Below, one piece after another: positions 156-38,046 of a stretch of DNA of 43,187 nucleotides. A model generated the notes under the pieces. It was not told the origin of the DNA. It saw only the letters and a program-made list of their open reading frames with translations, and did no database searches. The stretch spans positions 1-43,187 of the forward strand of contig JACROU010000035.1 in the NCBI GenBank assembly GCA_016214265.1, written 5' to 3'. The DNA comes from Candidatus Omnitrophota bacterium. Its GTDB lineage: Bacteria; Omnitrophota; Omnitrophia; Omnitrophales; JACROU01. Position numbers and translations under genes: made by a program. The first letter of the stretch is position 1; each line of letters begins with the position of its first letter.

Positions 156-184
156 TTGACACCCGATAGAGCCTATGCTAACCT
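156..184 (+). promoter_or_regulatory. Extended -10 promoter for the envelope operon
   Basis: A perfect -35 box TTGACA (156-161) is followed by a 17-base spacer and -10 TAACCT (179-184), preceded by the extended -10 dinucleotide TG at 176-177 (TGCTAACCT). Transcription would start near 191, about 37 bases before the chosen ATG at 228. The long open frame that reaches back to a TTG at 156 merely runs through this promoter. Confidence 0.7.
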
Positions 185-227
185 ATTGCAAATTTTCCCC
201 CATGAAAGGGCCTATCTCTTAACCATT

Positions 228-3059: not shown

Positions 3060-3060
3060 A

Positions 3061-3438
3061 ATGCGCAGTGCTTTGGAGAAAGAATTGCGTAGCTGGGTGG
3101 AAGCCCATGAGTCTCAGCTTCCGGCGGTAACTGGCAAAAAGAAGAAAAAGACGGCGAAAGGTCAGAAGAAAATTTCTCGTGACATGAACGATCTGAATAA
3201 GGAATTGGCTCGGGTGCTGAAGGAGGAAAGAGAAAACCTTCAAAAACAACATTCGCTATATCAGGAAAAACTTGAGCGTTTGAACAAAACTATTTCTACG
3301 ATGAAACGCCGTGCCGATGACCGGTATGAACTATTGGTTGCCGAAAAAGAAACTGTTGGCCGTCGATTGGAGCAAACCAGTAAAGAGATTGCCTCACTAA
3401 ATTCGGAAGAAGGTTTTGTCAATAAATCAGGAAAATAG
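3061..3438 (+). CDS. Small cytosolic coiled-coil protein, function unknown
   Basis: This gene encodes 125 residues starting at an ATG one base after the upstream stop, so it is probably translated by coupling because no good ribosome-binding site is visible. A Lys-rich stretch (KKKKKTAKGQKK, about residues 25-37) is followed by a continuous heptad-like helix, about residues 40-115. It has no signal peptide or membrane segment. An in-frame ATG at 2941 would lie inside the upstream gene in another frame and is unlikely to be used. I do not recognise a family. The position between the TPR/coiled-coil protein and lptE suggests an accessory of the same envelope operon. Confidence 0.6.
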   Translation: MRSALEKELRSWVEAHESQLPAVTGKKKKKTAKGQKKISRDMNDLNKELARVLKEERENLQKQHSLYQEKLERLNKTISTMKRRADDRYELLVAEKETVGRRLEQTSKEIASLNSEEGFVNKSGK

Positions 3439-6826: not shown

Positions 6827-8025
6827 TGAAAGATGAGCACGGCGAAATCATTTATATCGGGAAAGCCGCGGCGCTCCGGAAACGCGTCACTTCTTATTTT
6901 GTTCATGATGATCACGCGCCCAAAATCAGCATGCTCATGAAGCGTGTTTGTGATGTAGATTACATTGAGACGCCGACCGAGGTTGAGGCGCTCCTCCTGG
7001 AAGCGCAGCTTATTAACAAGCACAAGCCCCGCTACAACACGCGGCAGAAAGATGACAAAAGTTATCCGCTCGTTAAAATTACGCGCGAGCCATTTCCAAA
7101 ACTGGTGTTGACGCGTCAAAAAACAGACACAAAAGCCAGATATTACGGTCCTTTCACCGATTCCCGGATGCTACACGAGGCGTTGCGTTTGATACACACA
7201 ATTTTCCCGATTCGCAAATGCCAGACTCTCCCGAAAACCGCTTGTCTTTATTATCACATCGGTCAATGCATCGCGCCGTGCATTTTCCTGGATAAAAAAG
7301 AGGAATACGCCAAATTGATCAATGAAGTATCTGATTTTCTGGGCGGCGGCAAGAAAAGCCTGATCGATTATTTGTCGGAGAAAATGGAAGAAGCCTCCCG
7401 CGAGCTTCGGTTTGAAGAAGCTCAAATCTACAAAGAACAGATTCAGGCGCTGGCCCAGCTGAGGAAAAAGCGCTTTTACCAGGCGCGGCCCGAAAAATCC
7501 GTTTCTCTTTCCGCGACTTCCGAACTCAGGCGCGTGCTGAAACTGAAAAAATATCCCGAACGTGTGGTCTGTTTTGACGTGTCCAACATTATGGGAACCG
7601 AAGCGGTGGCTTCGAAAGTGAGCTTTTACCGTGAGATGCCCGACAAATTCGATTATCGCCATTACAAGATCAAAACCGTGATCGGGATTGATGATTATTC
7701 GATGATTCAGGAGGCCGTCCGGCGAATGATTCGTGGCATCAAAGAAGGGCGGGAAGAGATCGTTCCCGACGTGATTGTGATCGATGGCGGCAAGGGACAT
7801 TTGCGTGCGGCGTATGAAGTGATGAAACAGGAAAGCTTTACCGAAGTTGGCCTGATTTCTATTGCAAAAAGATTTGAACATCTCTACACTGTCGAATCTT
7901 CAGAACCCCTTGTCCTGGAACGGGATTCACCGCTTTTGCACCTGATGCAAAAGGTTCGGGACGAGGCGCATCGGTTCGCCATTACGTATCACAGAAAGTT
8001 ACGAGACAAGAAACTCTATGAATGA
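6772..8025 (+). CDS. uvrC: Excinuclease ABC subunit C, short form without HhH domain
   Basis: UvrC makes the two incisions of nucleotide excision repair. The GTG start at 6772 lies inside murJ. Seen in the 417 residues: a GIY-YIG nuclease (GVY 15-17, YIG 28-30, catalytic Glu77), a Cys-rich element (CLYYHIGQCIAPC, about 158-170), a UVR domain (about 200-233) that would bind UvrB, and the RNase H-like nuclease with its Asp269, Asp338 and His400 triad (FDVSN, IDGG, DEAHRFA). Two parts of the usual 600-aa protein are absent. The roughly 120-residue region between UVR and the second nuclease is reduced to about 20 residues, and the C-terminal helix-hairpin-helix domain is missing because the protein stops at [11 protein letters not shown]. 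All catalytic residues are kept, so activity with altered DNA binding is possible. The stop overlaps the prfB start (ATGAATGA). Confidence 0.88.
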   Translation: MDIRQKVQSLPETPGVYLMKDEHGEIIYIGKAAALRKRVTSYFVHDDHAPKISMLMKRVCDVDYIETPTEVEALLLEAQLINKHKPRYNTRQKDDKSYPLVKITREPFPKLVLTRQKTDTKARYYGPFTDSRMLHEALRLIHTIFPIRKCQTLPKTACLYYHIGQCIAPCIFLDKKEEYAKLINEVSDFLGGGKKSLIDYLSEKMEEASRELRFEEAQIYKEQIQALAQLRKKRFYQARPEKSVSLSATSELRRVLKLKKYPERVVCFDVSNIMGTEAVASKVSFYREMPDKFDYRHYKIKTVIGIDDYSMIQEAVRRMIRGIKEGREEIVPDVIVIDGGKGHLRAAYEVMKQESFTEVGLISIAKRFEHLYTVESSEPLVLERDSPLLHLMQKVRDEAHRFAITYHRKLRDKKLYE

Positions 8026-9128
8026 AAGCCGCGCGGAAAATTTAAAAGAAGACCTCGAAAAACTGCGTTTCACCATTTCTGAACTTCGGAGGCGTCTTTG
8101 ACCTGGGCGTCAAAGAAAAAGAAATTCAAGCGCTGAATGATAAAATGGCCGCTCCCAATTTTTGGGACCGGCAAAAAGAAGCTCAGGAAACGGTGGAGCA
8201 ATTAAAATCGCTGAGGGCGTTGGTGGATCCCATCGCCACTGCCGAGAAGCATATTCATGACCTGGTCGAGCTGGTTTCTCTCCTTTCCGATACCGATCCG
8301 CATTCCGTTGAAGAATTTGACCGTGAAATTACGCGGTTGCGCAAAGAAGTGGACGTGATTGAGTTTCAGCAGTTGCTTTCAGATCCCTACGATAAAAATG
8401 ACGCGATTGTCAGTATCAACGCTGGCGCTGGTGGAACCGAAGCCTGTGATTGGGCCAGCATGTTATACCGGTTGTACACTCGGTGGGCGGAAACGCGCGG
8501 TTTCAAAGTGGAATTATTTGATGAACTCTCGGGAGAAGAAGCGGGAATAAAAAACGTTACCTTTTTTATCCGCGGTCCTTATGCACATGGTTTTTTGAAA
8601 TCAGAATCCGGCGTTCACCGCCTCGTGCGCATTTCGCCGTTCGATTCTAACAAGCGTCGGCATACTTCATTTGCCTCTGTCGATGTGGTGCCGGATGTGG
8701 ACGATATTCCTGAAATTGAAATTAAGGATGTCGACATCAAAATCGATACTTACAGAGCGGGCGGAGCGGGCGGGCAGCACGTCAATAAAACGGAAAGTGC
8801 GATTCGCATTACGCATTTGGCAACGGGTATTGTGGTTCAGTGCCAGAACGAACGCTCACAGTTTAAGAATAAGCAGTCCGCGCTCAAAGTGTTGAAGGCG
8901 CGGCTGTACGAGCGTCACCGGAAAGAAGAAGACGCGAAAATTCAGGCGAAGTACGGTGAGAAAAAAGAAATTTCGTGGGGCTCGCAGATTCGCTCGTATG
9001 TGTTTCAGCCCTACTCGCTTGTGAAAGATCATCGCACCAACACTGAGACTTCCGATGTCAACCGGGTGATGGACGGGGATATCAATTTATTTATCGAAGC
9101 GTACTTGAAAGAACGGATAGGGAAATAA
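8018..9128 (+). CDS. prfB: Peptide chain release factor 2, programmed +1 frameshift
   Basis: RF2 releases nascent chains at UAA and UGA. The gene is split over two frames: codons 1-27 at 8018-8098, an in-frame TGA at 8099-8101, then reading resumes at +1 with GAC at 8100, so the CDS is the join 8018-8098,8100-9128 (369 aa). The resumed frame reads [22 protein letters not shown], the expected RF2 N-terminal helix ending in P-x-FW. The SPF tripeptide (about 206-208) that reads stop codons and the catalytic GGQ (about 251-253, in [12 protein letters not shown]) are present. The 5' end overlaps uvrC by 8 bases, and the stop overlaps the secA start by one base (TAATG). Annotating only from the internal ATG at 8145 would lose 42 residues. 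Confidence 0.96.
8086..8102 (+). promoter_or_regulatory. prfB +1 recoding site (SD-like element, CTT TGA C)
   Basis: The sequence CGG AGG CGT CTT TGA C matches the classic prfB autoregulatory frameshift cassette. An internal Shine-Dalgarno-like GGAGG (8088-8092) sits one codon before the slippery CTT (8096-8098), followed by TGA and C. In the known mechanism, low RF2 makes the ribosome pause at UGA, and the anti-SD pairing pushes the leucyl-tRNA one base forward, allowing full-length RF2 to be made. Spacing is identical to the E. coli arrangement (AGG GGG TAT CTT TGA C). Confidence 0.95.
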
Positions 9129-18391: not shown

Positions 18392-18766
18392 ATGAGTCCG
18401 AACAAAAAAATTCTTTTTGTCGACGATGAGGATGATATTCGAGAAGTGGTACAAATCCGGCTTGAATCCAATGGCTATCAGGTAGTTACCGCAGCTTCGG
18501 GTGAGGAGGCGCTTAACAAGGTTGCCTCAGAACATCCTGATTTAATGATTTTGGATGTGATGATGCCCGGAATGGACGGTCTGGCCGTTTTAAAAAAACT
18601 GCGCAAAGAAGTAACATCCTCAAAACTTCCGGTTATTCTTTTGACTGCAAAGCGAAAAAAAATGATCGGTGATCTTTTTGAGCTTGAAGGTATTCAAGGT
18701 TTTATTGAAAAGCCTTTTGAGTCCGCTGTTTTGCTCGACATGATAAAAAAAGCGCTGGTCCAGTAA
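18392..18766 (+). CDS. Stand-alone response-regulator receiver domain
   Basis: This 124-aa CheY-like protein contains only a receiver domain. The acidic pocket (Asp11, Asp12), phospho-acceptor Asp55 (LMILDVMMPGMDG), Thr85 (VILLTAK) and Lys107 (IEKPF) are all present, so phosphotransfer chemistry looks intact. No output domain is present, so it acts through protein contacts or as a phosphate shuttle. No histidine kinase lies in the window. The start follows AAGGA about 6 bases upstream. A small hairpin (ACCGG-TATT-CCGGT, 18367-18380) precedes the ribosome-binding site. Confidence 0.93.
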   Translation: MSPNKKILFVDDEDDIREVVQIRLESNGYQVVTAASGEEALNKVASEHPDLMILDVMMPGMDGLAVLKKLRKEVTSSKLPVILLTAKRKKMIGDLFELEGIQGFIEKPFESAVLLDMIKKALVQ

Positions 18767-25438: not shown

Positions 25439-25487
25439 AGATAAGATGCTTAGAGACACTGGATTCCCGCTTTCGCGGAAATGACAA
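25439..25487 (+). repeat. Palindromic dispersed repeat, copy A
   Basis: The element reads agataagat, then a ctggattcccgctttcgcgg hairpin arm, then aaatgacaaa. Its CCCGC...GCGG core is palindromic and resembles the widespread 'GGATTCCCGC..GCGGGAATGACA' repeats. Related segments form copy B at 29145-29234. It lies directly upstream of murE, and an ATG in its tail (25481) extends the murE frame by chance. Confidence 0.6.
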
Positions 25488-25513
25488 ATACAATTCGAAG
25501 GGACCCTTTTCCC

Positions 25514-27025
25514 ATGAAATTGGGAGCGCTTTTAGAAGGAGAAAATTTTCAGATCAGCGACAAACATTTACTTGATCGGGAGATCTTCCATTGGACAGAA
25601 CGTTCCGATGAAGTTAACAACAGTAGCTGGTTTATAGCCGTCCGCGGGGAAACTGTCGACGGCCATAATTTCATTCCGGACGCGTTGCGCCGTGGAGCTT
25701 CTGGCATCATCGCCGAAAAACCTTTTCTTGGTACCGGAGACCCAGTTCCTTGCGTGATCGTTCAGGATTCCAGAAAAATTCTTTCACTCATTTCCTCCCG
25801 CTGGTTTGGTGTGCCTTCCGGACGCCTTCATTTAATTGGGGTCACTGGGACAAATGGTAAAACTACCATCACGTATTTGATTCAAAACCTGCTCAATTAT
25901 TTTACCCAGGCCGGTCTTGTGGGAACGGTAGAGGCCCGGTGGCAGGATAAACAGCAGCCTACTATTAATACAACGCCCGGGCCGCGGGAATTGAACGCGG
26001 TGCTTAATCAAATGGTTCAAGACGGGGTCACGGCCTGTGCGATGGAAGTATCCAGTCACGCGCTGAAACAAGGGCGGGTGGACGACGTTCTTTTTCAGAC
26101 TGCAGTGTTTACCAACCTGACTCAGGATCATTTGGATTATCACAAAACATTCGACGATTATTTTGAATCGAAGGCAAAGCTTTTTCTGGAATTTCCATCC
26201 GTGACGAAACGAATTGTCAATCTGGATGATGCGTATGGAAAAAAAATGTGGAATCGTCTTAAAAAAAATGCGGGAATAAGTTATGCCATTAATCAAAGAG
26301 CCGATTACGAGGCTCGCGATGTTCAGATGGCGATGGATGGAACCCATTTCGTTTTGATTGCGCGAGGCGGGCCATTTAAGGTGAGTACGAAACTTTTATG
26401 TCTGCACAATGTTTATAATTTGTTAGCCGCGATTGCCACAACCGTTGAAATGGGCTATCCAATAGAAGGGATTCTGGAGGCCGTTAAACATTTTGATGGG
26501 GTGCCTGGTCGTCTGGAACGATTCAGCCATCCGAATGGCGCTGCTATTTTTGTCGACTATGCACATTCACCAGATGCATTTAAAAATATTTTTGGTTCAC
26601 TCAAACCGTTAAAATGCGGCCGAATTGTGAGTGTGTTTGGCTGCGGCGGAAATCGGGACAGGGATAAACGTTCCAAAATGGGCCGCATCGCCGGTGAGTT
26701 TTCAGATCACATGATTGTGACTTCAGACAATCCGCGTGAGGAAGATCCCAAAGAAATTATCCGTGAAATTTTAGTTGGCCTAAATCATGCGTCGGTGACG
26801 AGCTCGCTCGATGTGATTGAGTCCAGGAGTGAGGCCATTCGTCATGCACTCGATATTGCCCGTCCGGAAGATACGGTTCTTATTCTGGGAAAAGGGCATG
26901 AGAATTATCAGATTATCGGAAAACAAAAGTTTCATTTTTCAGATCAGGAGGAAATACAGCAGTGGATCAAGGAATTCAAAACGCACAAAGAACCTTCAGT
27001 CTCCCGGAACTTGCTCGGCGTTTAG
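25514..27025 (+). CDS. murE: UDP-MurNAc-L-Ala-D-Glu: meso-DAP ligase MurE
   Basis: MurE adds the third residue of the peptidoglycan stem peptide. The P-loop TGTNGKT (about 111-117), the ATP-site block (EVSSHALKQGRVDDV; TNLTQDHLDYH) and the carbamylated-lysine region (YFESKAKLF) are present. The substrate motif DNPR (405-408, SDNPREEDP) is the signature for meso-diaminopimelate and not lysine. The ATG at 25514 gives 503 aa. The earlier ATG at 25481 lies in the upstream repeat and is unlikely. A GAAGGGA about 11 bases upstream is a possible but distant ribosome-binding site. It overlaps murF by 64 bases. Confidence 0.96.
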   Translation: MKLGALLEGENFQISDKHLLDREIFHWTERSDEVNNSSWFIAVRGETVDGHNFIPDALRRGASGIIAEKPFLGTGDPVPCVIVQDSRKILSLISSRWFGVPSGRLHLIGVTGTNGKTTITYLIQNLLNYFTQAGLVGTVEARWQDKQQPTINTTPGPRELNAVLNQMVQDGVTACAMEVSSHALKQGRVDDVLFQTAVFTNLTQDHLDYHKTFDDYFESKAKLFLEFPSVTKRIVNLDDAYGKKMWNRLKKNAGISYAINQRADYEARDVQMAMDGTHFVLIARGGPFKVSTKLLCLHNVYNLLAAIATTVEMGYPIEGILEAVKHFDGVPGRLERFSHPNGAAIFVDYAHSPDAFKNIFGSLKPLKCGRIVSVFGCGGNRDRDKRSKMGRIAGEFSDHMIVTSDNPREEDPKEIIREILVGLNHASVTSSLDVIESRSEAIRHALDIARPEDTVLILGKGHENYQIIGKQKFHFSDQEEIQQWIKEFKTHKEPSVSRNLLGV

Positions 27026-28380
27026 GCGGAAAAGTTAAAAATCTTCGAGACGGCGGTGATGTATTGACGGGCATTTCTATCGACACTCGTACGCTTGCGT
27101 CCGGAAATGTTTTTGTCGCCCTTCGGGGAAAAAAGCTGGATGGTCATCAATTTCTTTCTCAGGCAATCGGGCGTGGGGCGCTCGCTTTTGTGGTTGACTC
27201 CCAATTTTTTGCTGCCGAGAAACTAGAGAATACGCACAATCTCATCGTGGTATCGGATACTACGAAAGCACTTCAGAAGCTGGCTACTTCCGTGCGGGAT
27301 GATTTTAAAGGTCTCGTGGTAGGGATTACTGGAAGTTCCGGAAAGACCACTACAAAAGAAATTACGCGGGCATTTTTGAAATCTCGCTGGAATTTGCTTG
27401 CGAGCGAAGGCAATCAGAATAATTACATCGGATTACCGCTTACGCTTCTGAAATTGGACGGCTCGCATGACGCTCTGCTTGCTGAGTTGGGCGCGAGTTA
27501 TCCCGGAGAAATCGGGGAACTTTGTGAGATTTTGAAACCGGATTGGGGTATTATCACGAATGTGTACCCCTGCCATCTTGAGGGATTTGGGAGCCTCGAA
27601 AATATTTATCATACTAAACTGGAGTTGGCGGGAAAAATTATTTCGCGCGGGGGAACCGTTGCCGTTAACGGTGATGATAATCGATTGCTCGAACTTGTAA
27701 AAAAGGGGAAAGGTCGGCGGGTTACTTTCGGTATTTCATCGGATTGTGATTTTGCACTCACCCAAACGAAGCCTTATGCTACGGGAATGGAATTTGTGGT
27801 GAACGGAAAACACAATTTTTGCATTGAAACGCGGGGACAGTTTAATGTGATGAACGCGCTTGGGGCCATCGCGCTTGCCGCCTCAATGGGACTTAAAATG
27901 GGGAAGCTCGCTGAAATTTTAGAAACCCTTGAGCTGCCTAAATCCCGTTTTCAGTTGATGACTTCGCCGCAAGGCGTACGTATTGTTGACGACGCATACA
28001 ACTCTAATCCGACATCGCTCCGGCTGGCGATCGAATCTTTCGAAGGAATGAAAGCGGATGGGCGAAAGGTACTGGTCGCGGCGGATATGCTTGAGCTGGG
28101 CGAGCGTAAAAAAGAATTTCACCGCAGCCTGGGTGAAGGAGCTGCCCACAAAAATATTGACGTTGTCGTGACAGTTGGTCCGCTGATGAGAGAATTTCTA
28201 GCGGGACTTCACGGTGTGCTTGACCGACGGCCTGTTACTTATGGATTTGATAATAATGAAGAGGCGAAAGAATTTTTGAAAGTATTTTTGAAATCAGGTG
28301 ATTTGGTGCTTTTTAAAGGCTCTCGCTCCATGAAACTCGAGGAAATCATTCAATGTTTTATGCCCTCTTATATCCATTAA
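26962..28380 (+). CDS. murF: UDP-MurNAc-tripeptide: D-Ala-D-Ala ligase MurF
   Basis: MurF attaches the D-Ala-D-Ala dipeptide, completing the UDP-MurNAc pentapeptide. The 472-aa protein has the P-loop GITGSSGKTTTK, the NQNNYIGLPLTLL block typical of MurF, ELGASYPGEIGELCEILKPD, and the C-terminal DDAYNSNPTSLRLAIESF motif. The start is a GTG at 26962 inside murE with AGGAGG about 11 bases upstream (26944-26951). The 3' end overlaps the mraY start by 28 bases. Confidence 0.96.
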   Translation: MDQGIQNAQRTFSLPELARRLGGKVKNLRDGGDVLTGISIDTRTLASGNVFVALRGKKLDGHQFLSQAIGRGALAFVVDSQFFAAEKLENTHNLIVVSDTTKALQKLATSVRDDFKGLVVGITGSSGKTTTKEITRAFLKSRWNLLASEGNQNNYIGLPLTLLKLDGSHDALLAELGASYPGEIGELCEILKPDWGIITNVYPCHLEGFGSLENIYHTKLELAGKIISRGGTVAVNGDDNRLLELVKKGKGRRVTFGISSDCDFALTQTKPYATGMEFVVNGKHNFCIETRGQFNVMNALGAIALAASMGLKMGKLAEILETLELPKSRFQLMTSPQGVRIVDDAYNSNPTSLRLAIESFEGMKADGRKVLVAADMLELGERKKEFHRSLGEGAAHKNIDVVVTVGPLMREFLAGLHGVLDRRPVTYGFDNNEEAKEFLKVFLKSGDLVLFKGSRSMKLEEIIQCFMPSYIH

Positions 28381-29136
28381 GAGAATATTCAATCATTTTC
28401 AATATTTTCAAGTACATCACGTTCCGTTCCGGAGCGGCCGCGGTAACAGCATTTATGTTGTCGCTATGGCTTGGTCCACGCATGATTGAGTGGCTCCGTC
28501 AATTAAGCGTGACGGCCTGCAACAAACGTGAGCATGCCGAGCAAATTCACAAATTTTATGAAGGTAAGGGTAGTGTGCCGACGATGGGCGGAATTATTCT
28601 GATCGCCGCGATTACCATCTCGATGATTTTGTGGGGCAATTTTTCAAATAAATATACCCTCTTGTCACTCCTCGTTCTGCTTTGGTTTGGTGGAGTCGGT
28701 TTTTTGGATGATTATCTGAAAATCCGTTCAAAAAGTTCGAAGGGGCTCGCGTCTTTCACCAAGCTAAGTGGACAGCTGATTTTAGGAACGTTTCTCGGGT
28801 TTTATCTTTTCTTCGATACGTCGTTCGATCACCAAATTTACATTCCTTTTTTTAAGGGGATCGCTTTCGCTCGGCGGCGTTTTGGGCGCAGTCGCAATTT
28901 TTATTAAAAAAGAATTGCTGCTTGTCATCGTGGGGGGCGTTTTTGTTTGGGAAGCGCTATCGGTGATTCTGCAGGTTGCATCATTCAAGCTATTCAAAAA
29001 ACGAATTTTTAAAATGTCGCCATTCCATCATCATCTCCAGCTTTTGGGATGGCCCGAATCAAAAGTCACTGTGCGGCTGTGGATTATTGCCTTTATTCTA
29101 TCGATCGTCGGACTTAGCACGCTGAAGATTCAGTAG
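28353..29136 (+). pseudogene. mraY: mraY with internal deletion and frameshift
   Basis: MraY makes lipid I from UDP-MurNAc pentapeptide and undecaprenyl phosphate. The 5' part (28353 to about 28856) encodes an intact N-terminus with YITFRSGAA, GKGSVPTMGG and FLDDYLKIR (the Asp-Asp pair). It ends at IPFFK near 28856. The 3' part, in the +1 frame from about 28858, reads [19 protein letters not shown] and then [20 protein letters not shown], with the HHH motif ([13 protein letters not shown]) to 29136. Compared with the usual 360-aa protein, about 100 residues between them are missing, including NLTDGLDGL and the catalytic GDVGSL aspartate. The first frame then stops at 28907. Either the gene is broken or the sequence is wrong here. 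MraY is normally essential, and no second copy is in the window. Confidence 0.9.
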
Positions 29137-29144
29137 ATAGTTTA

Positions 29145-29234
29145 TCATTCCCGCGAAAGCAGGAATCCAGTTCCTTTGCTATTTCAAGATAAGATATTAA
29201 AGATAGTGGATCCCGGGTCAAGCCCAGAATGACA
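29145..29234 (+). repeat. Composite palindromic repeat, copy B
   Basis: The left arm tcattcccgcgaaagcagga (from 29145, continuing to 29170) is the inverse of the copy A core. The shared agataagat sits at 29187-29195, and the right arm (29207-29234) reads tggatcccgggtcaagccca then gaatgaca. The arms are inverted relative to each other, so the whole could fold as a long imperfect hairpin. It fills the space between the broken mraY and murD, whose ribosome-binding site AGAGGA follows. Confidence 0.65.
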
Positions 29235-29250: not shown

Positions 29251-30525
29251 ATGGAAATTTTCTCCGGAAAAAAAGTATCAGTGCTTGGACTTGGCAAATC
29301 GGGGTTCGAGTCCGCACTATTTTTGAAAGAGCATGGTGCGGAGGTTTATGTCAGCGAATTGGCCGAGAAAGAAGATTTCCTGCAAAAGAAAAGTGAGCTT
29401 GAGGCGCTTGGTATTCGATGCGATATCGGGACGCATGACTATGCTCAAATTCTCGAGTCTCAATTTTCAGTGGTTTCTCCCGGCATAGCCCCACATACCG
29501 AACTCATGCAGACGCTTCGACAGAGGCACCATAAAACCATCAGCGAAATTGAATTGGCATTCCGTTTTTTTCAAGGGGACGTCGTTGCTATCACTGGAAC
29601 GAACGGGAAGACAACGACAACAACACTGTCCGCCGGGCTGCTTCAGCATTTCGGAAAAAAATCGTTTTCATGCGGGAATATTGGCAATTCGGTTATCGGA
29701 GAAATCCGTAAAGACAACGTGACAGGTACCGCGGTGATTGAGGTAAGTTCTTTTCAGCTCGAGACGACGGAATTATTCCGGCCGAAAGTCGCATTTCTTC
29801 TGAATGTGGAGCCTGATCATATCGATTGGCACGGGAATTTTGAGAAATATCTGGCCGCCAAGCTCAGGATTTTTGAGAATCAGAAAACGGATGACGCTGC
29901 TATTTTAAATTTCCGCGATTCAGTGATTCAAAAATCGATTCCACAAATTCATTCCCGCGTATTTTTCTTTAACGAGTCGCCCGGTGCGGAAAATCCAAAT
30001 TGGGATGCCGTGCTTGCGCTTTGTGATGTGTACGGTTTTGACCGTGCAGCCGGCGAAGCGTTTTTAAAAAGTGCTCCGCCGATTGAACATCGGCTTGAGC
30101 AGTTTATAGATCCTGGAAAAACCGACGGTGTGATTTACATCAATGATTCGAAATCAACGAATCCCGCATCGCTTACTTACGCGCTTGAGCGACAAAAACA
30201 AAAAGTCATTTTGATTGTTGGCGGGAAGAACAAAGGAAACCATTTCGATGCTCTGCGGCCTCTGGTCAGTCATAAAGTGAAGCACTTGATTATTTTTGGT
30301 GAGTGCAAAGAACTCATGCGCGAAGATCTAGGGCCTGCTGCACCGTATGAAATTGCAGCTGATCTGGCGGATGTGCTTTCCCGTGCCAAGCTTGCGGCTC
30401 AACGGGGGGACGTTGTGCTCTTTTCTCCCGGGTGTGCCAGCTTTGACATGTTCAAAAATTATGAGGACCGTGGACGAAAGTTCAAAGAAGGAGTTCTGGC
30501 GGGGAGTGAAGTCCATGTCGCTTAG
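29251..30525 (+). CDS. murD: UDP-MurNAc-L-Ala: D-Glu ligase MurD, shortened middle
   Basis: MurD adds D-glutamate to UDP-MurNAc-L-alanine. The 424-aa protein has the N-terminal Rossmann-like GLGKSGFESALFL, the P-loop ITGTNGKTTTT, EVSSFQLETTELF, NVEPDHIDWHGNFEKYLAAK, HRLEQF, INDSKSTNPAS and the C-terminal LFSPGCASFDMFKNYEDRG. The ATG at 29251 has AGAGGA upstream. Between the central strand ending VFFFN and the helix NWDAVLALCDVYGFD, the segment that usually ends in 'L.G.HN' is about 30 residues shorter than in E. coli MurD. All frames are intact, so it may still be active. It overlaps ftsW by 11 bases. Confidence 0.94.
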   Translation: MEIFSGKKVSVLGLGKSGFESALFLKEHGAEVYVSELAEKEDFLQKKSELEALGIRCDIGTHDYAQILESQFSVVSPGIAPHTELMQTLRQRHHKTISEIELAFRFFQGDVVAITGTNGKTTTTTLSAGLLQHFGKKSFSCGNIGNSVIGEIRKDNVTGTAVIEVSSFQLETTELFRPKVAFLLNVEPDHIDWHGNFEKYLAAKLRIFENQKTDDAAILNFRDSVIQKSIPQIHSRVFFFNESPGAENPNWDAVLALCDVYGFDRAAGEAFLKSAPPIEHRLEQFIDPGKTDGVIYINDSKSTNPASLTYALERQKQKVILIVGGKNKGNHFDALRPLVSHKVKHLIIFGECKELMREDLGPAAPYEIAADLADVLSRAKLAAQRGDVVLFSPGCASFDMFKNYEDRGRKFKEGVLAGSEVHVA

Positions 30526-31636
30526 TAAAGAAGGGAACGCAGTTTTTATTGCGACGCTGGTTCTAAATGCGGTTGGAACGATTATGATTTTTAGCGCAAG
30601 TGCTGTGTTTGCAGATAAATATATGGATGATAGTCTGTATTTTTTGAAACGCCAAATCGTGTATCTCGTTCTTGGTTTTTCGGCGCTGCTTGCGGCTTCT
30701 TCAATTAATTTAAACTGGATTCAAAAACATTCCCGAGTAATTTTACTGCTCTCAATCTTTTTTTTGATTTTAGTTTTTATGCCGGTCATCGGAAAGTCAG
30801 GTGGAGGTGCACGCCGCTGGATTGGTTTTCCCGGTTTTAATTTTCAGCCTGTGGAATTCGCCAAGCTTGCAGTTGCTATTTATCTTTCTGATTATCTGTC
30901 CCGAAAAATGAAATGGATTCAATCCGGATCGCTCGTGGTTTATTTAGTGCCCGGATTGATGTTGCTCCTGCTTTTTGGAGTGACAATTCTTCAGCCCGAT
31001 CTCGGTTCCGTTGTTTTTATTTTTCTACTTTCGTCGATTCTGCTTTTTTTGAGCGGTATTCCTCTTCGATATGTCGGAGCAGTCTTTTTGGCGGCATTAC
31101 CCATATTCGCCATGGCCGTGTTTCATTCCTCATACCGGATGGCGCGCATTCTGGCTTTTTTAAATCCCTGGGCTGATCCGCTTGGAACCGGATTCCAGAT
31201 TATTCAATCGTTTCTGGCATTCGCTCTTGGCGGATTGACTGGAGTGGGACTGGGTGAGAGCGTGCAAAAACTATTTTACCTTCCGCAGAGTTATACGGAT
31301 TTTATTTTTTCGATTATCGGGGAAGAAACTGGCCTTGCCGGAACTTTGTTTGTGCTTTTGGTGTTTGTTTTTTTGGTTCTTCAAGGGCTCAGAATTGCCA
31401 AGCGTGTGCAGGATGATCCCTTCCGGCAATTGTTGGCATTTGCGACGGTATCGATTATTGCGTTTCAAGCGATTATCAACATGCTGGTGACGACAGGAAT
31501 GATTCCGACAAAAGGATTACCGCTTCCGTTTATCAGTTACGGAGGTTCTGCCATAATCGGCAACATGGCGGCGATCGGGCTTTTGCTGGCCATCGACAAA
31601 GAATATATGAAACGGGAAGTGTACGAGCAAACATGA
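30515..31636 (+). CDS. ftsW: Peptidoglycan glycosyltransferase FtsW (SEDS family)
   Basis: FtsW polymerises lipid II at the septum. The 373-aa protein has about 10 membrane helices. Diagnostic SEDS blocks are GARRWIGFPGFNFQPVEFAKL, LQPDLGSVVFIF, GFQIIQSFLAFALGGLTGVG, IGEETGLAGT (a conserved periplasmic acidic site) and the C-terminal GLPLPFISYGGSAIIGNMAAIG. The ATG at 30515 is preceded by GGGGAG about 8 bases upstream. Extending the frame upstream to 30347 would overlap murD by about 180 bases and is rejected. It overlaps murG by four bases (ATGA). Confidence 0.95.
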   Translation: MSLSKEGNAVFIATLVLNAVGTIMIFSASAVFADKYMDDSLYFLKRQIVYLVLGFSALLAASSINLNWIQKHSRVILLLSIFFLILVFMPVIGKSGGGARRWIGFPGFNFQPVEFAKLAVAIYLSDYLSRKMKWIQSGSLVVYLVPGLMLLLLFGVTILQPDLGSVVFIFLLSSILLFLSGIPLRYVGAVFLAALPIFAMAVFHSSYRMARILAFLNPWADPLGTGFQIIQSFLAFALGGLTGVGLGESVQKLFYLPQSYTDFIFSIIGEETGLAGTLFVLLVFVFLVLQGLRIAKRVQDDPFRQLLAFATVSIIAFQAIINMLVTTGMIPTKGLPLPFISYGGSAIIGNMAAIGLLLAIDKEYMKREVYEQT

Positions 31637-32769
31637 AAATACTGATCGTGACCGGCAGGACGGGCGGGCATTTTTTTCCGGCAAAAACATTTGCTCAAGC
31701 GCTGAAGCATGAATATCCTCAGGCAGAAGTTCATTATGTTCTGAGTCAGAGAACATCCGGAGATTTGCTGGAAGAAGAGTCAAGTAATTCCAAATATTTT
31801 CACTATCTTCCTGCCTTTCCGTGGAAAGGATTGTTTACTCCGAAGGTTTTTCAATTTGCGTTTTCTTTCGTGAAGGCTTTTTTTCAATCTCGGAAATTGT
31901 TAAAGATGCTGCGTCCAAAATTAGTTGTTGGCTTCGGAAGTTACCTTTCGTTTCCGTTAATTATTTCTGCTCGAAAGTGGAAAATTCCCACCCTGATTCA
32001 CGAGCAAAATGCTGAAATGGGAAAGGCCAACCACATGCTGGCGCCTTACGTTTCGAAAATCGCGGTTAGTTTTTCAGATACGCGAGATGAGCGGTTCCCC
32101 GAAAAATTTGTTCATACGGGAAATATTCTCCGGAATGATCTGTTTTACGCGGCGCAGGCAAAACGGGAGAACGATAATAATCATTTTCATATTTTGGTGC
32201 TCGGGGGCTCGCAGGGAGCTCATGAGCTGAACCGGTTGGTTACGGAAGGGGTCGCGTTGCTTTCCCGGGAACTTGTAAAAAAGATTCAAATTGTTCATCT
32301 GACCGGGGCAAAGGATCTTGAATCGGTGCGTGAGAAATACAAGAATCTTGGTGTCGAGGCTTCTGTTATATCTTTTTCCAACGAAATGGGCAAACTATAC
32401 CGCCAGACAGATCTGTTAATTTCGCGAAGTGGTGCGGGAACTTTATTTGAAAGTGTGTTATTTCAACTGCCGGCGATTTTGGTTCCGTATCCGTATGCCG
32501 GTTCTCATCAATATCAAAATGCGCAAGCGCTGACGCAGGCGGGAAATTCCTGGATTCTGGACCAGCGGACTGCTGCGCCGCAGGAATTGGCCGATAAATT
32601 AACGTCAATCATGAATCACCCTGAGGATCTGGCCCATGTGCGCTCGAGGATTCGCCATATTTTGAAGGTTGATGACGGTCAGAATTTGACGCGTGTGGCA
32701 ATGAGTTTGATTAACGACAAAATTAACTTTTCAGCGAACACGGAGGTTCGTCTTGAGACTGCTAACTGA
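31633..32769 (+). CDS. murG: Lipid II synthase MurG
   Basis: MurG transfers GlcNAc from UDP-GlcNAc onto lipid I to make lipid II at the inner membrane. The 378-aa GT-B protein starts MKILIVTGRTGGHFFPAK, the family's first glycine loop (usually GGTGGH; here GRTGGH). It also carries VVGFGSYLSFP, HEQNAEMGKANHMLAP, LGGSQGAHELNRL and RSGAGTLFESVLFQLPAILVPYPYA. It overlaps murC by 17 bases. Length and order are standard for a dcw cluster. Confidence 0.95.
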   Translation: MKILIVTGRTGGHFFPAKTFAQALKHEYPQAEVHYVLSQRTSGDLLEEESSNSKYFHYLPAFPWKGLFTPKVFQFAFSFVKAFFQSRKLLKMLRPKLVVGFGSYLSFPLIISARKWKIPTLIHEQNAEMGKANHMLAPYVSKIAVSFSDTRDERFPEKFVHTGNILRNDLFYAAQAKRENDNNHFHILVLGGSQGAHELNRLVTEGVALLSRELVKKIQIVHLTGAKDLESVREKYKNLGVEASVISFSNEMGKLYRQTDLLISRSGAGTLFESVLFQLPAILVPYPYAGSHQYQNAQALTQAGNSWILDQRTAAPQELADKLTSIMNHPEDLAHVRSRIRHILKVDDGQNLTRVAMSLINDKINFSANTEVRLETAN

Positions 32770-34165
32770 CGAGGAGAAACAATATTTGGAAGGCTTGTTT
32801 ATTTCACCCAAGAACATTTATCTGACCGGAATCGGCGGCGTGGGGATGAGCGCATTGGCCAAAGTGCTGGTGCATTTAGGACATCACGTGACCGGGTCCG
32901 ACGCCAAGCAAAGTCCATATCTGGATTCGCTGATTGAAAAGGGCGTGAAGATTACATTTAATCAAAAAGAGCCTGATTTGGCGGGAATTGATTTTGTGAT
33001 TTATTCCTCTGCGATTTCCGAGAACCACCCAGAAATGATTGCAGCGCGCCGGTTTAATGTCCCGCTTTTTCACCGCGCGCATATTTTGAGTTTTATTTTA
33101 AATCGCCACACATCGATTGCGGTCACTGGAACTCACGGCAAGACGACAACGTCCGCGATGATTTCATTTCTGTTGAGTGAACTGGGCGCGAATCCTACCT
33201 GCCTGGTGGGGAGTAAAATGCTCAATGCCGGAGATAATGTGATTTTGGGCGACCGGCGGATTTTTGTCGCTGAGGTGGATGAAAGCGACGGCACTCAGGC
33301 TTATTACACGCCCACGTATTCCGTGATGACAAACCTGGATGACGATCACATGGATTATTATCAAACTCTGGAGCGTCTCATCGAGAGTTTTGAGTCGCTG
33401 GCCCAAAAAACACACGAAGCCGGATCTGTGGTGTATTCATACGAGGATGATAAACTCCGCGCGATGATGAAAAACATCAATCGCTTGAAGATTTCGTACG
33501 GGTTTTCAAAAGAGGCGGATTTTTATGCGGAATCTATCGTCCAAGATGGCTTTCAGATTTCCTTTAGGATGTTTCATCAGGGGAAATTTCTGACGGATAT
33601 CACGTTGGCCATTCCGGGCCGTCACAATGTGCTGAATTCGCTGGGATCCATCGCTCTTTTGTACTCGCTGGGCTACGATATCAACCGCCTGCGCAAAGCG
33701 ATCCTGAAATTTCAAGGAACGTCGCGCCGGCTGGAAGTCAAATTCAATTCACCGAAACTCATGGTGATTGACGATTACGCACATCATCCGACCGAGGTTC
33801 TGGCATCGCTTGCAGCGATTAAGCGGTTGGGCCGGAAAATGTGCGTGATTTTTCAACCACACCGGTTTACGCGTACGAAATATCTGGCCAAAGCGTTTGG
33901 CGCTGCGTTTGACTTGGCCGAGCAAGTGATTCTGACGGATGTCTATTCTGCGGGTGAAAAGTCGATTTCCGAAGTCGACGCCAATTTGATTTATACGGAA
34001 GTGAAGGCCTCGAAACATCCGAACGTTCAGATGATGCCGCGAAATCAAATTATCGATTTTCTGCTTCGAGATTCGCAAAATTATGAACTCGTCGCCTTTT
34101 TGGGCGCGGGAGATATAGGAGATTTGGCAAATGACTTTGCTGGGCGGGTTGAAGATCGGGCTTGA
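32753..34165 (+). CDS. murC: UDP-MurNAc: L-Ala ligase MurC
   Basis: MurC attaches the first amino acid of the stem peptide. The 470-aa protein contains the GIGGVGMSALAKVL N-terminal glycine loop, ITGTHGKTTTS-type P-loop (here VTGTHGKTTTSAM), AEVDESDGTQAYY, TNLDDDHMDYYQ and DDYAHHPTEVLASLAA. The start is a TTG at 32753 with a good CGGAGG seven bases upstream (32741-32746), inside the murG 3' end. No ATG is suitably placed. It overlaps murB by 35 bases. Confidence 0.95.
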   Translation: MRLLTDEEKQYLEGLFISPKNIYLTGIGGVGMSALAKVLVHLGHHVTGSDAKQSPYLDSLIEKGVKITFNQKEPDLAGIDFVIYSSAISENHPEMIAARRFNVPLFHRAHILSFILNRHTSIAVTGTHGKTTTSAMISFLLSELGANPTCLVGSKMLNAGDNVILGDRRIFVAEVDESDGTQAYYTPTYSVMTNLDDDHMDYYQTLERLIESFESLAQKTHEAGSVVYSYEDDKLRAMMKNINRLKISYGFSKEADFYAESIVQDGFQISFRMFHQGKFLTDITLAIPGRHNVLNSLGSIALLYSLGYDINRLRKAILKFQGTSRRLEVKFNSPKLMVIDDYAHHPTEVLASLAAIKRLGRKMCVIFQPHRFTRTKYLAKAFGAAFDLAEQVILTDVYSAGEKSISEVDANLIYTEVKASKHPNVQMMPRNQIIDFLLRDSQNYELVAFLGAGDIGDLANDFAGRVEDRA

Positions 34166-35036
34166 GCCTGACGAATCTTTATCAAAACACACAAGCTGGC
34201 GCATTGGCGGCAACGCTGTTTTTATGGCCTGGCCCAAAAATATAGACGAATTGGCCGGAATTCTTGACTATGCGCGGGATCAACATCTTCCGATCTGCGT
34301 TATCGGACGGGGAAGCAACATGCTATTCTCCGATGAGGGGTTTTTTGGTATTGTCATCAATATGCTCCATTTTGAAAAGGAGTATCTAAAAGTGGACGGT
34401 AACTGTGTTGAAGTGTCCGCGGGTATGCCGAATCATATTCTTGTTCAAAAATGCGCTGAGTTGGATCTTGGAGGTCTGGAATTTCTCTCGTCCATCCCCG
34501 GAAGTGTTGGCGGCGCTTGCGTACAGAATGCGGGATTTAGCCGTCTGAAGGGCCAGAAAAATGAAATGAAACATTTTGTAGAAGAAGTTATGGTTCTCAC
34601 CCGAGATGGGCAAGTCAAGAAGTTAAAACATGAGGAAATCCTTTGGAATTATCGTGACACCAGTCTCAGACAATTCATTGTATTAAAGGCCAAGTTGAAA
34701 TTCGAAAGAAAAAATAAGGCGGAAGTGCAGAAAGAAGTCTATGAGAATTACCGTTACCGCTCTGAAATTCAGGATCTTCAACACCCGAGCGCCGGCTCTG
34801 TTTTTAAAAATCCTGCCGGAGCAGGGATGTCAAGCGGGCAACTGATCGACAAAGCCGGATTAAAAGGTTTCAAAATTGGAGATGCTCAGATTTCCGAACG
34901 ACACGCTAACTTTTTTATCAATACTGGTCATGCGACCTGTGAAAATATGCTGGCTCTTATACAGCATGCGAAAGGTAAGGTGAAAGAGCAATTTGGCGTG
35001 ATGCTGGAGGAGGAAATTCGTTATGTCGCAGGTTAA
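34131..35036 (+). CDS. murB: UDP-N-acetylenolpyruvoylglucosamine reductase MurB
   Basis: MurB is a flavoenzyme that reduces the enolpyruvyl group to give UDP-MurNAc. The 301-aa protein has the FAD-binding SKHTSWRIGGNA, VIGRGSNMLFSD, SIPGSVGGACVQNAGF and the catalytic-serine region YRYRSEIQDLQHPSAGSVFK, plus HANFFINTGHAT. TAGGAG lies about 10 bases before the ATG at 34131. It overlaps ddl by 14 bases. Confidence 0.95.
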   Translation: MTLLGGLKIGLEPDESLSKHTSWRIGGNAVFMAWPKNIDELAGILDYARDQHLPICVIGRGSNMLFSDEGFFGIVINMLHFEKEYLKVDGNCVEVSAGMPNHILVQKCAELDLGGLEFLSSIPGSVGGACVQNAGFSRLKGQKNEMKHFVEEVMVLTRDGQVKKLKHEEILWNYRDTSLRQFIVLKAKLKFERKNKAEVQKEVYENYRYRSEIQDLQHPSAGSVFKNPAGAGMSSGQLIDKAGLKGFKIGDAQISERHANFFINTGHATCENMLALIQHAKGKVKEQFGVMLEEEIRYVAG

Positions 35037-35976
35037 CGGATTCGCCGGCAAAATCGGCGTACTGATGGGTGGGAATTCGAGCGAGCGTTCTATTTCCTTA
35101 AAGTCCGGAGAAGCAGTGCTGACTGCACTCAGGCAAAAAGAATTTAACGTTCTTCCCTTGGATATTCAGGGCGCGAGGCGGGAAATTGCAAACAAAATCA
35201 AATCTTCTGAAATCGCTTTGGCTTTTATTACCCTGCATGGCCGCGGTGGAGAGGATGGTTTTATTCAGACACTGTTGGAAGAACTTGATATCCCCTACAT
35301 CGGTTCAAGCCCTGAGGGCAGTCTTAAAGCGTTTAACAAACTAGAGTCAAAAAAAATCTTTGTCGAAAAAGGAATTCCGACTCCTCGTTACGCAATGATT
35401 ACGGCGATGAATTGGAAAGATCAAATTGCCGCTCTGCGATTTCCCGTTTTTATTAAACCGGTGGATGAAGGTTCGAGTATTGGTGTGAAAAAAATAAAAA
35501 GTTTTGAGGAGATGTCCGCCGTTGCACCTCAAGAGTTCGAAGAGTATGATTCGCTTTTGGCCGAAGAGGCTGTTTTAGGGCGAGAACTGACTGTCGGTAT
35601 TTTGGGCAACAAAGCGCTGCCGGTGATTGAGCTCAGGCCCAAGCGCGAATTTTACGATTACACCGCGAAATATACGAAGGGCATGACAGAATATCTGGTT
35701 CCCGCGCCGATAAAACAGGAAACGACCGGAGAATTGCAGAAAATCGCTCTGCAAGCATTTCGCGCGCTGGATCTTCGGGATTTTTCGCGTGTCGATTTTA
35801 TGCTGGACCAAAATGACAATCCGTTTGTGTTAGAGGTCAATACAATTCCCGGGTTTACAGAAACCAGCTTGCTTCCCAAAGCGGCAAAAGTTATCGGGAT
35901 TGATTTTGGCGACTTGTGTTCAACATTGATTCAATTTGCAAAGGAACGGTGTCTTGCTCATGGCAAAAAAAAGTAA
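35023..35976 (+). CDS. ddl: D-alanine-D-alanine ligase
   Basis: Ddl makes the D-Ala-D-Ala dipeptide used by MurF. The 317-aa ATP-grasp protein starts with KIGVLMGGNSSERSISLKSG, then LHGRGGEDGFIQTLLEELDI, FIKPVDEGSSIGVKKIKS, RVDFMLDQNDNPFVLEVNTI, and PGFTETSLLPKAA, all standard blocks. GGAGGAGG lies upstream of the ATG. It overlaps murB by 14 bases and ftsQ by 17 bases. Confidence 0.96.
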   Translation: MSQVNGFAGKIGVLMGGNSSERSISLKSGEAVLTALRQKEFNVLPLDIQGARREIANKIKSSEIALAFITLHGRGGEDGFIQTLLEELDIPYIGSSPEGSLKAFNKLESKKIFVEKGIPTPRYAMITAMNWKDQIAALRFPVFIKPVDEGSSIGVKKIKSFEEMSAVAPQEFEEYDSLLAEEAVLGRELTVGILGNKALPVIELRPKREFYDYTAKYTKGMTEYLVPAPIKQETTGELQKIALQAFRALDLRDFSRVDFMLDQNDNPFVLEVNTIPGFTETSLLPKAAKVIGIDFGDLCSTLIQFAKERCLAHGKKK

Positions 35977-36811
35977 ACGCGGAAGCAGCGGACTCAAAAT
36001 TAACTGGCATGCCCACATCAGCAATTTTATTCATGCGTTCGGTATCGGGCTTTATTTTATCTCAAAATTTCTGCCTGTGTTATTGGCCGGATTGTTAATC
36101 GGAGGCATGTATCACGGCATTCAGAAATATTTATATGCCGATCCCTATTTTCGTCTGGATGTGATACGGGTAAAAAGTGACCTTCCTTTTACTTCCAAGG
36201 AAGTCGAGAAAATCAGCGGACTTAAACTTGGGGAGAATCTACTGGCTATTGATCTAGATAGAATTTCAAAAAGTATTGAAAAAAATCCTCAGATAAAACG
36301 TGTTGATGTTAAACGCGCACTTCCCAACACCATCGAAATTGATGTCGTGAGGCGTTTTGAAGTCTTTCAGGTCCGGCCGCGTGGACAGGGGCGCTATTTT
36401 GCCATTGATGATCAAGGTATTATTCTCCCTAAGTCGGATGTGAGCCCACTTAAGGGACTTGTATTGATTGATGACGGTAGTGTTCCGAAGAGGCCGGTTG
36501 GAATTGGGGATCAGTACCGGACGAAAAATCTGGATGCGTTCAAGGCACTCTATCAATACGTTATTCAGGAAAGCGAACTGGCCGGTGAGAGAATTGAGAC
36601 TATGCTGGTTGATCATCTCGGGAATTTCACTGTTTATTTGACCGGAGGTTTCGAGGTGCGGCTAGGTAAATCGTACGTAAAAAATTTGAAAAAATTACGC
36701 GGCCTAAAAAATCTTCTACAATCCGACGAGCGCTCAAAAATTGAATACCTAGATCTCCAGTATCAGGATGTTGTTGTGAAAATGAAAGAGGATCAACGAC
36801 TGAAACTCTAA
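35960..36811 (+). CDS. ftsQ: Cell division protein FtsQ
   Basis: FtsQ is a bitopic inner-membrane divisome scaffold. The 283-aa protein has a basic cytoplasmic N-terminus (MAKKSKRGSSGLKINW), a membrane helix (about 30-50, FLPVLLAGLLIGGMYHGI), a POTRA domain (FRLDVIRVKSDLPFTSKEVEKI and GLKLGENLLAIDLDRISKSI), and a beta domain with the typical KNPQIKRVDVKRALPNTIEIDV. The ATG at 35960 is about 13 bases after AAGGAA. A TTG at 35954 is an alternative with tighter spacing. The stop overlaps the ftsA start (TAATG). Confidence 0.88.
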   Translation: MAKKSKRGSSGLKINWHAHISNFIHAFGIGLYFISKFLPVLLAGLLIGGMYHGIQKYLYADPYFRLDVIRVKSDLPFTSKEVEKISGLKLGENLLAIDLDRISKSIEKNPQIKRVDVKRALPNTIEIDVVRRFEVFQVRPRGQGRYFAIDDQGIILPKSDVSPLKGLVLIDDGSVPKRPVGIGDQYRTKNLDAFKALYQYVIQESELAGERIETMLVDHLGNFTVYLTGGFEVRLGKSYVKNLKKLRGLKNLLQSDERSKIEYLDLQYQDVVVKMKEDQRLKL

Positions 36812-38046
36812 TGCCAAAATCGACCCCACTGTTTATATTTTATATCGGCTCCACCAAGCTTTCCGCGGTTAAGGTGAAGCAAATCGACGAGTCGTTTTTT
36901 GACGTCGTTGAATTTCACGAGATTCAACCCTCCGGATTCGAGAAAGGGAATGTGGTGGACGGCGAGAAAGCGGTGCATGACATTCGCCGTCTTTCCAGTG
37001 AATTGGGTTCCTTTTCGGAATTCATGAAATATCCGCTTTATCTCGTGATTGAAAGCGCGTTTTCAAATACCTATTCTCTTTCCAGCTCGCTTTATTTCCA
37101 AAAGCAAAAACGCATTTATTCTTCCGACGTCAATGAGGTCATTGATCAAACTCGCGAAGTAGCGACCCTTCCGATGAACGAGCATTTGATTCTTTCCGTA
37201 GCACAAGGGTTTATTGTCAACGATCTTTCCGGAATCCGTAATCCCGTGGGGCTTGACGGAACGCGTCTCGGAGTGGATTTACTGCTCGGGACTTTGTCGG
37301 TGGATGTGTACAAAAAACTTCAGCAGGTATTCAAGCAAAATGGCCTGCGAATTACGAATATCATTCCGAAGGGAGTCGCGGGCACGTTTGGCTTGCTGGG
37401 GCCCGAAGAGTTTAAAGGAAGTACGTTGTTTTTAGATGTCGGCGGAAAATTGACGAGTTTGGTTTATATCCGCGATGAGCGGGTGCGACGTTCATCTTGG
37501 CTCACATTTGGTGGGGAAAATTGGACTCAGCGTGTGGTGCAAAGTCTCGGGATGACTGAAAAGGAAGCGCGCCGTGTGAAAGAGGTGTTTGGGTCTGTCC
37601 AGTCTGAGCGGGAATTTCATGATGAAATTATTCCCCGGTCCGGCGGCGTTGTGACGCAGACAACCCGGGATATGAAATTGAAAGATTTGTATCCGCTCTT
37701 GAATGATGGGATGAAAGATTTTTTGGAGCTGATTCGTCTGGAGATTGATCGAATCGAGAAGGTAGAGACGGCGATTGAGCGCATTGTGATCACAGGAGGC
37801 GGGGCTCGGATGGATGGATTTCTGGAACGGCTTCAGGATGAACTGAAAAAACCAGTTCGTCTGGCGCAGCCGCTTCGAATTCGCACGAAAGAAAATCATC
37901 TGATTCGGCCCGAGTACGCTTCTTTTTTGGGGACACTCCGTTTTTTATCCGAAGAAAATAAAAAGGAAGCGGAGCGGTATCAGGGCGAGGGAGCGATTGC
38001 CTCGGCAATTAAAAAAGCCAAAGACTGGTTCCACGAGTACTTTTAA
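36811..38046 (+). CDS. ftsA: Actin-like cell division protein FtsA
   Basis: FtsA tethers FtsZ filaments to the membrane. The 411-aa protein starts FYIGSTKLSAVKVKQ (actin phosphate-1 loop) and has an FtsA-type 1C/SHS2 stretch (HLILSVAQGFIVNDLSGIRN then PVGLDGTRLGVDLLLGT), the second phosphate loop LFLDVGGKLTSLVYI, and an ITGGGARMDGF adenosine motif. The C-terminal amphipathic helix (IKKAKDWFHEYF) is the FtsA membrane-targeting tail. It is more divergent than typical FtsA, and a PilM-like protein is the alternative, but the tail and the position after ftsQ favour FtsA. No ftsZ follows: the operon ends in a terminator. Confidence 0.87.
   Translation: MPKSTPLFIFYIGSTKLSAVKVKQIDESFFDVVEFHEIQPSGFEKGNVVDGEKAVHDIRRLSSELGSFSEFMKYPLYLVIESAFSNTYSLSSSLYFQKQKRIYSSDVNEVIDQTREVATLPMNEHLILSVAQGFIVNDLSGIRNPVGLDGTRLGVDLLLGTLSVDVYKKLQQVFKQNGLRITNIIPKGVAGTFGLLGPEEFKGSTLFLDVGGKLTSLVYIRDERVRRSSWLTFGGENWTQRVVQSLGMTEKEARRVKEVFGSVQSEREFHDEIIPRSGGVVTQTTRDMKLKDLYPLLNDGMKDFLELIRLEIDRIEKVETAIERIVITGGGARMDGFLERLQDELKKPVRLAQPLRIRTKENHLIRPEYASFLGTLRFLSEENKKEAERYQGEGAIASAIKKAKDWFHEYF

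Follow-up and report, generated by a model that had tools for sequence, protein, structure and literature searches.

In the MraY of A. aeolicus, D117, D118 and D265 have been described as critical, with D265 binding Mg2+, and a uridine pocket has been assigned to G194, L195 and D196 together with F262, according to the extract of PMC6606608 used here. With regard to the need for this enzyme, the extracts of two further sources give different pictures: mraY is essential in Verrucomicrobium spinosum (PMC12283558), yet single mraY1 and mraY2 deletion mutants have been made in the planctomycete Planctopirus limnophila, also of the PVC superphylum, and murABCDEFGJ are reported as not essential in this species (PMC10632474). 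An earlier sequence-only reading of the present locus held that MraY has no bypass, which does not apply as a general law. The extract of PMC12283558 describes the dcw genes as highly conserved in Omnitrophota. Misjoins and erroneous deletions, finally, occur in metagenome assemblies, as set out in the part consulted of PMC9661791.

The window analysed here is a stretch of 43,187 nucleotides that begins at base 1 of contig 10 in a Candidatus Omnitrophota assembly (G000), which comprises 2,315,921 bases in 102 contigs and is 91.47% complete. Its nearest relatives, G001 and G002, are Omnitrophota metagenome-assembled genomes of the same family. The contig carries murJ, uvrC, prfB, secA and lnt, followed by murE-murF-mraY-murD-ftsW-murG-murC-murB-ddl-(ftsQ-like)-ftsA and by glycine cleavage genes, and runs collinear with the segment of G001:C24 between about 129 and 175 kb.

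A split mraY in an ordinary dcw cluster

The features of the cluster are the following:

25481-28380, plus strand: murE (25481-27025) and murF (26962-28380), intact, over the curated cut-offs of TIGR01085 and TIGR01143, collinear with G001
28353-28856, plus strand: N-terminal part of mraY, 168 codons, up to IPFFK, with the DD motif (LDDYLK) retained; TIGR00445 positions 1-131
28856-28858, plus strand: deletion junction, 305 nt gone by alignment to G001 and G002, the frame shifting by one
28858-29136, plus strand: C-terminal part of mraY in the other frame, from GSLSLGG through HHH to the stop; TIGR00445 positions 229-320 (231-320 with the pieces taken apart)
29145-29234, plus strand: copy of a dispersed palindromic element, situated between mraY and murD; with the full element as query, G000 as a whole gives 23 matches, this copy included, most of them partial
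29251-38046, plus strand: murD, ftsW, murG, murC, murB, ddl, an ftsQ-like gene and ftsA, open and gap-free

The genes murD, ftsW, murG, murC, murB and ddl score over their curated cut-offs, and ftsA matches nearly its whole profile, although with 150.4 against a cut-off of 175.85. The gene between ddl and ftsA, which we take to be ftsQ-like, aligns to residues 14-285 of 285 in G001, and the murJ of the window is whole. The other mur genes of the cluster had been described as intact, and this is borne out by the family cut-offs that they pass, by their open frames and by their collinearity with G001. Upstream, prfB (8018-9128) contains CTTTGA at 8096-8101 after an AGG-rich stretch, as it does in G001 and G002, presumably the usual programmed +1 frameshift site.

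The mraY genes of G001 and G002 are intact, with 362 aa each, and in both of them, as in the window, the order is murE-murF-mraY-murD. In these intact genes, exactly 102 codons separate IPFLK from GSLSLGG. The window gene (28353-29136) lacks this block minus one nucleotide, so that, by alignment to G001 and G002, exactly 305 nt (102 x 3 - 1) are missing, which agrees with the internal deletion of about 100 codons with a frameshift, and with the length of 305 nt, that had been estimated earlier. The N-terminal frame starts at 28353 and has as its last codon the K (AAG, 28854-28856) of IPFFK, and the C-terminal frame begins with GGA at 28858 and stops at 29134-29136. The frame moves by one because a single G (28857) sits between the two. 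The junction carries no N, and both flanks are open and conserved, with one conserved block absent between them.

Motifs lost with the missing block

Both parts of mraY are matches to TIGR00445 beyond chance (E 2.1e-27 and 1.9e-36). However, their scores, 96.4 and 126.3 bits in the six-frame search and 98.2 and 125.6 bits with the pieces taken apart, fall below the curated cut-off of 192.05 bits, and neither piece qualifies as a member of the family by itself. According to the alignment with G001 and G002, the missing block comprises the NLTDGLDGL loop and the GDT that precedes GSL. The N-terminal piece retains LDDYLK, and with it the first two Asp of what we take to be the DDD motif (D117 and D118 in A. 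aeolicus). The Mg2+-coordinating Asp, D265 in A. aeolicus, is assumed to sit in the motif GD[TV]GS; it is absent here, with only GSLSLGG left and GDT within the missing 102 codons. Loop C of the uridine pocket, which we take to be N..DGLDG, is likewise within the missing segment and has no copy elsewhere in the assembly. The C-terminal piece contains HHH, presumably the C-terminal motif of MraY. The loss of the catalytic region, previously noted from the sequence, is thereby upheld for both the loop and the Mg2+-binding Asp, and it can be predicted that the remaining pieces could not form an active MraY.

Search for another mraY and distribution among relatives

A search with HMM profiles returned no second mraY and no PF00953 match in the 2.316-Mb assembly (91.5% complete), and a sequence search for the missing middle found no copy of it elsewhere in the assembly. 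The latter search had no control of its own, and the HMM search that agrees with it recovered 12 of 14 controls. The second mraY that had been suggested is therefore not met with in this assembly by either approach. With respect to independent copies of the same species, genome contigs gave only the G001 and G002 loci and one distant locus, and a 28-base pattern from the 5' flank had no match among viral contigs.

In the 117 genomes searched, the window's own included, mraY scored over the cut-off in 111 of the 116 relatives, with one match in each of 111 different genomes; the class-wide search gave 39 of 44 genomes (39 of 43 relatives). Of the five relatives that do not reach the cut-off, G028 carries a fragment at the end of a contig, G004 gives no more than a weak match, and nothing was matched in G003, G016 and G043; G003, G004, G016 and G043 are 71-86% complete. 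In G047 and G080 mraY is interrupted by the end of a contig, and, among the matches listed, G000 is alone in having two mraY pieces on one contig with the middle gone.

Two observations on these relatives deserve mention in their own right. In G003 and G004, which belong to the same order and are 86% and 79% complete, neither mraY nor murD passes its cut-off and murG is unconvincing; either contigs are missing or the whole cluster has been lost, and both genomes merit attention as possible cases of genuine loss of the cell wall in Omnitrophota. G001 and G002 each have, besides mraY, a second and weaker TIGR00445 match, which is perhaps WecA-like, G000 having no PF00953 match.

It could be argued that the genome has a second, working mraY in the portion absent from the assembly (about 8.5%), the window copy being a true pseudogene. 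The completeness of 91.47% leaves space for such a gene, and P. limnophila has mraY1 and mraY2 (extract of PMC10632474). Nevertheless, this is extremely unlikely, since no relative has two matches over the cut-off and the window copy stands, undecayed, in its normal dcw place, collinear with G001.

The absence of mraY and PF00953 matches from the assembly would also be expected if the deletion were real and fixed, that is, if the lineage had recently abandoned lipid I synthesis, a condition that another PVC bacterium tolerates, mraY1 and mraY2 being each dispensable in P. limnophila (extract of PMC10632474). Such an organism, having just lost MraY, would live without lipid I or would obtain it through some other enzyme, whatever its type. 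This explanation is very unlikely, taking into account that 111 of 116 relatives have mraY over the cut-off, that the window's other peptidoglycan genes are whole, murG and murJ included, that dcw genes are termed highly conserved in Omnitrophota (extract of PMC12283558) and that the two mraY pieces are strongly constrained. Were it true, the locus would capture the loss of the cell wall in the PVC superphylum at its very first step, and a real loss would be a rare case of MraY disappearing while the remaining pathway genes stay intact, in a phylum whose cell-wall genes are otherwise highly conserved.

Constraint on the remaining pieces

Substitutions in the two pieces were counted against G002 in the manner of Nei and Gojobori. 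The N-terminal piece has an amino acid identity of 0.74 over 167 codons (pN 0.163, pS 0.782) and the C-terminal piece one of 0.90 over 92 codons (pN 0.082, pS 0.885), with the synonymous sites saturated and dS undefined. The identities between G002 and G001 over the same parts, 0.64 (N-terminal) and 0.84 (C-terminal), are below those between the window and G002. The relaxed constraint that would mark a pseudogene is not seen, pN being far under pS in both pieces, and the comparison indicates that full constraint acted on mraY up to a very recent time, or acts on it even now. It has to be noted that a very recent loss of mraY would show equally undecayed pieces.

Breakpoints and the neighbouring palindromic repeat

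The two 60-nt contexts of the breakpoints in G001 and G002 have no common word longer than 6 nt, and this favours a faulty closure or a real deletion over a collapse between long direct repeats, an origin that is rejected here as unlikely. The 12-mers that span the junction do not recur in the sampled genome; this does not speak against a collapse, after which a single copy would be left, and the breakpoint contexts constitute the better test.

The palindrome at 29145-29234, with a fold z of -2.85, belongs to a family that is more densely represented in the sample of G000 than in that of G001: with up to 5 substitutions allowed, the 669 kb of G000 hold 22 copies of the left arm and 11 of the right, and the 1.36 Mb of G001 hold 14 and 1. 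It had been put forward as a candidate cause of the deletion. The repeat itself is real, and in support of such a role it could be mentioned that it lies about 290 nt downstream and that the spacer between mraY and murD, of 114 nt in the window, is shorter in G001 (43 nt) and G002 (30 nt). However, it sits about 290 nt from both breakpoints, neither of which touches a copy, many copies are dispersed through the genome, and none of those listed lies beside the breaks in nuo, uvrC or the coiled-coil gene described below. The repeat is thus dismissed as the cause, a role that is extremely unlikely. One copy is located about 420 nt from the doubtful end of folK (see below).

Other probable lesions in the draft

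The search for similar defects covered 741,354 nt of G000, window included, of which 669,299 were readable (29% of the genome), and 1.36 Mb of G001 (about half), compared by tblastn in both directions. When ORFs from G001 were placed on G000, 137 pairs with at least 50% identity were obtained, 121 of them full, 5 at edges and 11 partial. On reading, these 11 corresponded to mraY, to nuoB and nuoC (two rows for one deletion), to uvrC, to folK and to six natural-looking differences in tails or families. In the reverse direction, 125 of 135 pairs were full and 10 partial, none of which was judged to be a lesion of G001; five of these partial matches were read as sequences and five were judged by the position of start site or tail or by the opposite comparison, and one of them was nuoB, short owing to the lesion in G000. 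In a smaller run at 40% identity or more, with pieces of G002 included, full matches were obtained for 26 of the 30 genes from the window and for 43 of the 52 from elsewhere.

The lesions proposed besides mraY are these:

Contig 64 (G000:C64:1-20000), around 18397-18411: deletion across the boundary of nuoB and nuoC, by which the two are fused, about 450 nt gone
6772-8025 of the window, plus strand: uvrC without its 3' end (about 55 aa), the profile being matched to 539 against 571-574 in six of six relatives
156-3438 of the window, plus strand: coiled-coil gene of about 1,100 codons, a single frame in G001 (1089 aa from the first Met) and frameshifted here

In the first case, the last shared codon of nuoB and the first shared codon of nuoC are separated by 452 nt in G001 and by 2 in G000. 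The N-terminus of NuoC is intact in G001 and G002, and G000 shows only distant paralogues of it. Both genes are presumed to be nuoB and nuoC from reading their sequences; pyrG, considered as an alternative, was discarded, since it is whole. In uvrC, about 55 residues have gone together with the spacer, and the stop lies over the probable start codon of prfB (8018); this is probably a second lesion on the window contig. The match of the coiled-coil gene breaks off in frame 3 at 2957 and is taken up again in frame 1 at 3172, the G000 stretch being about 98 nt shorter than that of G001, and it is probably a third lesion. Both differences could also be natural. As for the gene that we take to be folK, situated before a presumed panC (G000:C57, around 4861), some 34 C-terminal residues are apparently missing, either naturally or by another cut. 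Other candidates, which we take to be rnc, ilvN, rpsC, the tails of ribosomal L3 and an RDD-type protein with its neighbour, were discarded, their sequences being read as natural.

A census of second colinear hits gave mraY, the coiled-coil gene (156-3438) and one repeat protein among 166 pairs of at least 40% identity, and the repeat protein only among 163 pairs in reverse. Counting mraY, nuo and uvrC, lesions amount to 3 of 137 in G000 against 0 of 135 in the G001 control (one-sided p 0.13, mraY having been chosen beforehand), and with the coiled-coil gene to 4 of 166 against 0 of 163 (one-sided p 0.06, again with the preselected mraY among them); which partial matches count as lesions is the analyst's reading. 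The excess in G000 appears suggestive but is not significant.

The spacing of 129 neighbouring gene pairs was also compared. At least 14 of these pairs are shorter in G000 than in G001 by a minimum of 200 nt, including nuo (-450) and mraY-murD (-234), and 11 are longer by at least 290 nt. The remaining differences may represent natural spacing or further cuts. In addition, the readable sample of G000 contains three short runs of N, of 13, 19 and 23 bases. One of them is flanked on both sides by the same 17 bases, which means that its two ends overlap and that it does not represent a true gap. The runs are taken as scaffolding gaps, in keeping with a scaffolded draft of unreliable gap sizes, and could in principle be masking.

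Origin of the gap in mraY

Taking into account the good preservation of what remains of the gene and the similar cut in at least one other gene pair, the gap in mraY is most likely an error of the draft. It is thus probable that a deletion was produced during assembly or joining and that the organism carries an intact mraY. Under this proposal, which presumes short-read data and a join that is itself erroneous, contigs would have been wrongly joined, with 305 nt of real mraY dropped, and the living organism would possess the intact gene within a dcw cluster of the usual kind. Losses of about 100-450 nt would fit the gap sizes of paired-end data. A join with neither N nor a long repeat needs real spanning reads or a faulty gap closure; if reads really cross such a join, the deletion would be real.

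A real deletion could be a strain-level event, in which part of the population would bear it, the assembler would have followed the deleted DNA, and other cells would keep mraY. The N-free junction and the contexts of the relatives, devoid of a long repeat, are what a real deletion crossed by reads would leave, and the undecayed pieces are those of a very recent event. However, mraY is expected to be essential in an organism that keeps murE, murF, murD, ftsW, murG, murC, murB, ddl and murJ, and therefore the deleted cells should not dominate; moreover, the similar cuts in unrelated genes point to a cause acting on the whole draft. A strain-level deletion is consequently considered rather unlikely. 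Among the origins first envisaged for the gap, an assembly problem or a strain-level deletion is supported, and a second mraY is not supported, none being present in the assembly (91.5% complete). If the gap is an artefact, as the error of joining preferred here implies, the draft misses parts of conserved genes, and claims of gene loss based on it need the support of reads.

Comparison with known systems

The window resembles the misjoins described for metagenome assemblies (extract of PMC9661791) in that a few hundred bases are abruptly missing where sequences are joined, with several such sites suspected in this draft, and differs from them in that the case is derived from comparison alone and not from depth or pair distance. 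With respect to the MraY family TIGR00445, both pieces match it and the order murE-murF-mraY-murD is that of G001 and G002, whereas the window gene lacks approximately profile positions 131-229, changes frame, remains below the cut-off and has lost the Mg2+-binding Asp and the uridine loop. The closest known genes are the mraY of G001 and G002, from the same family and with the same neighbours, to which the window gene is 68% and 73% identical over its N-terminal 171 residues; both of them are intact (362 aa), while the window copy is split.
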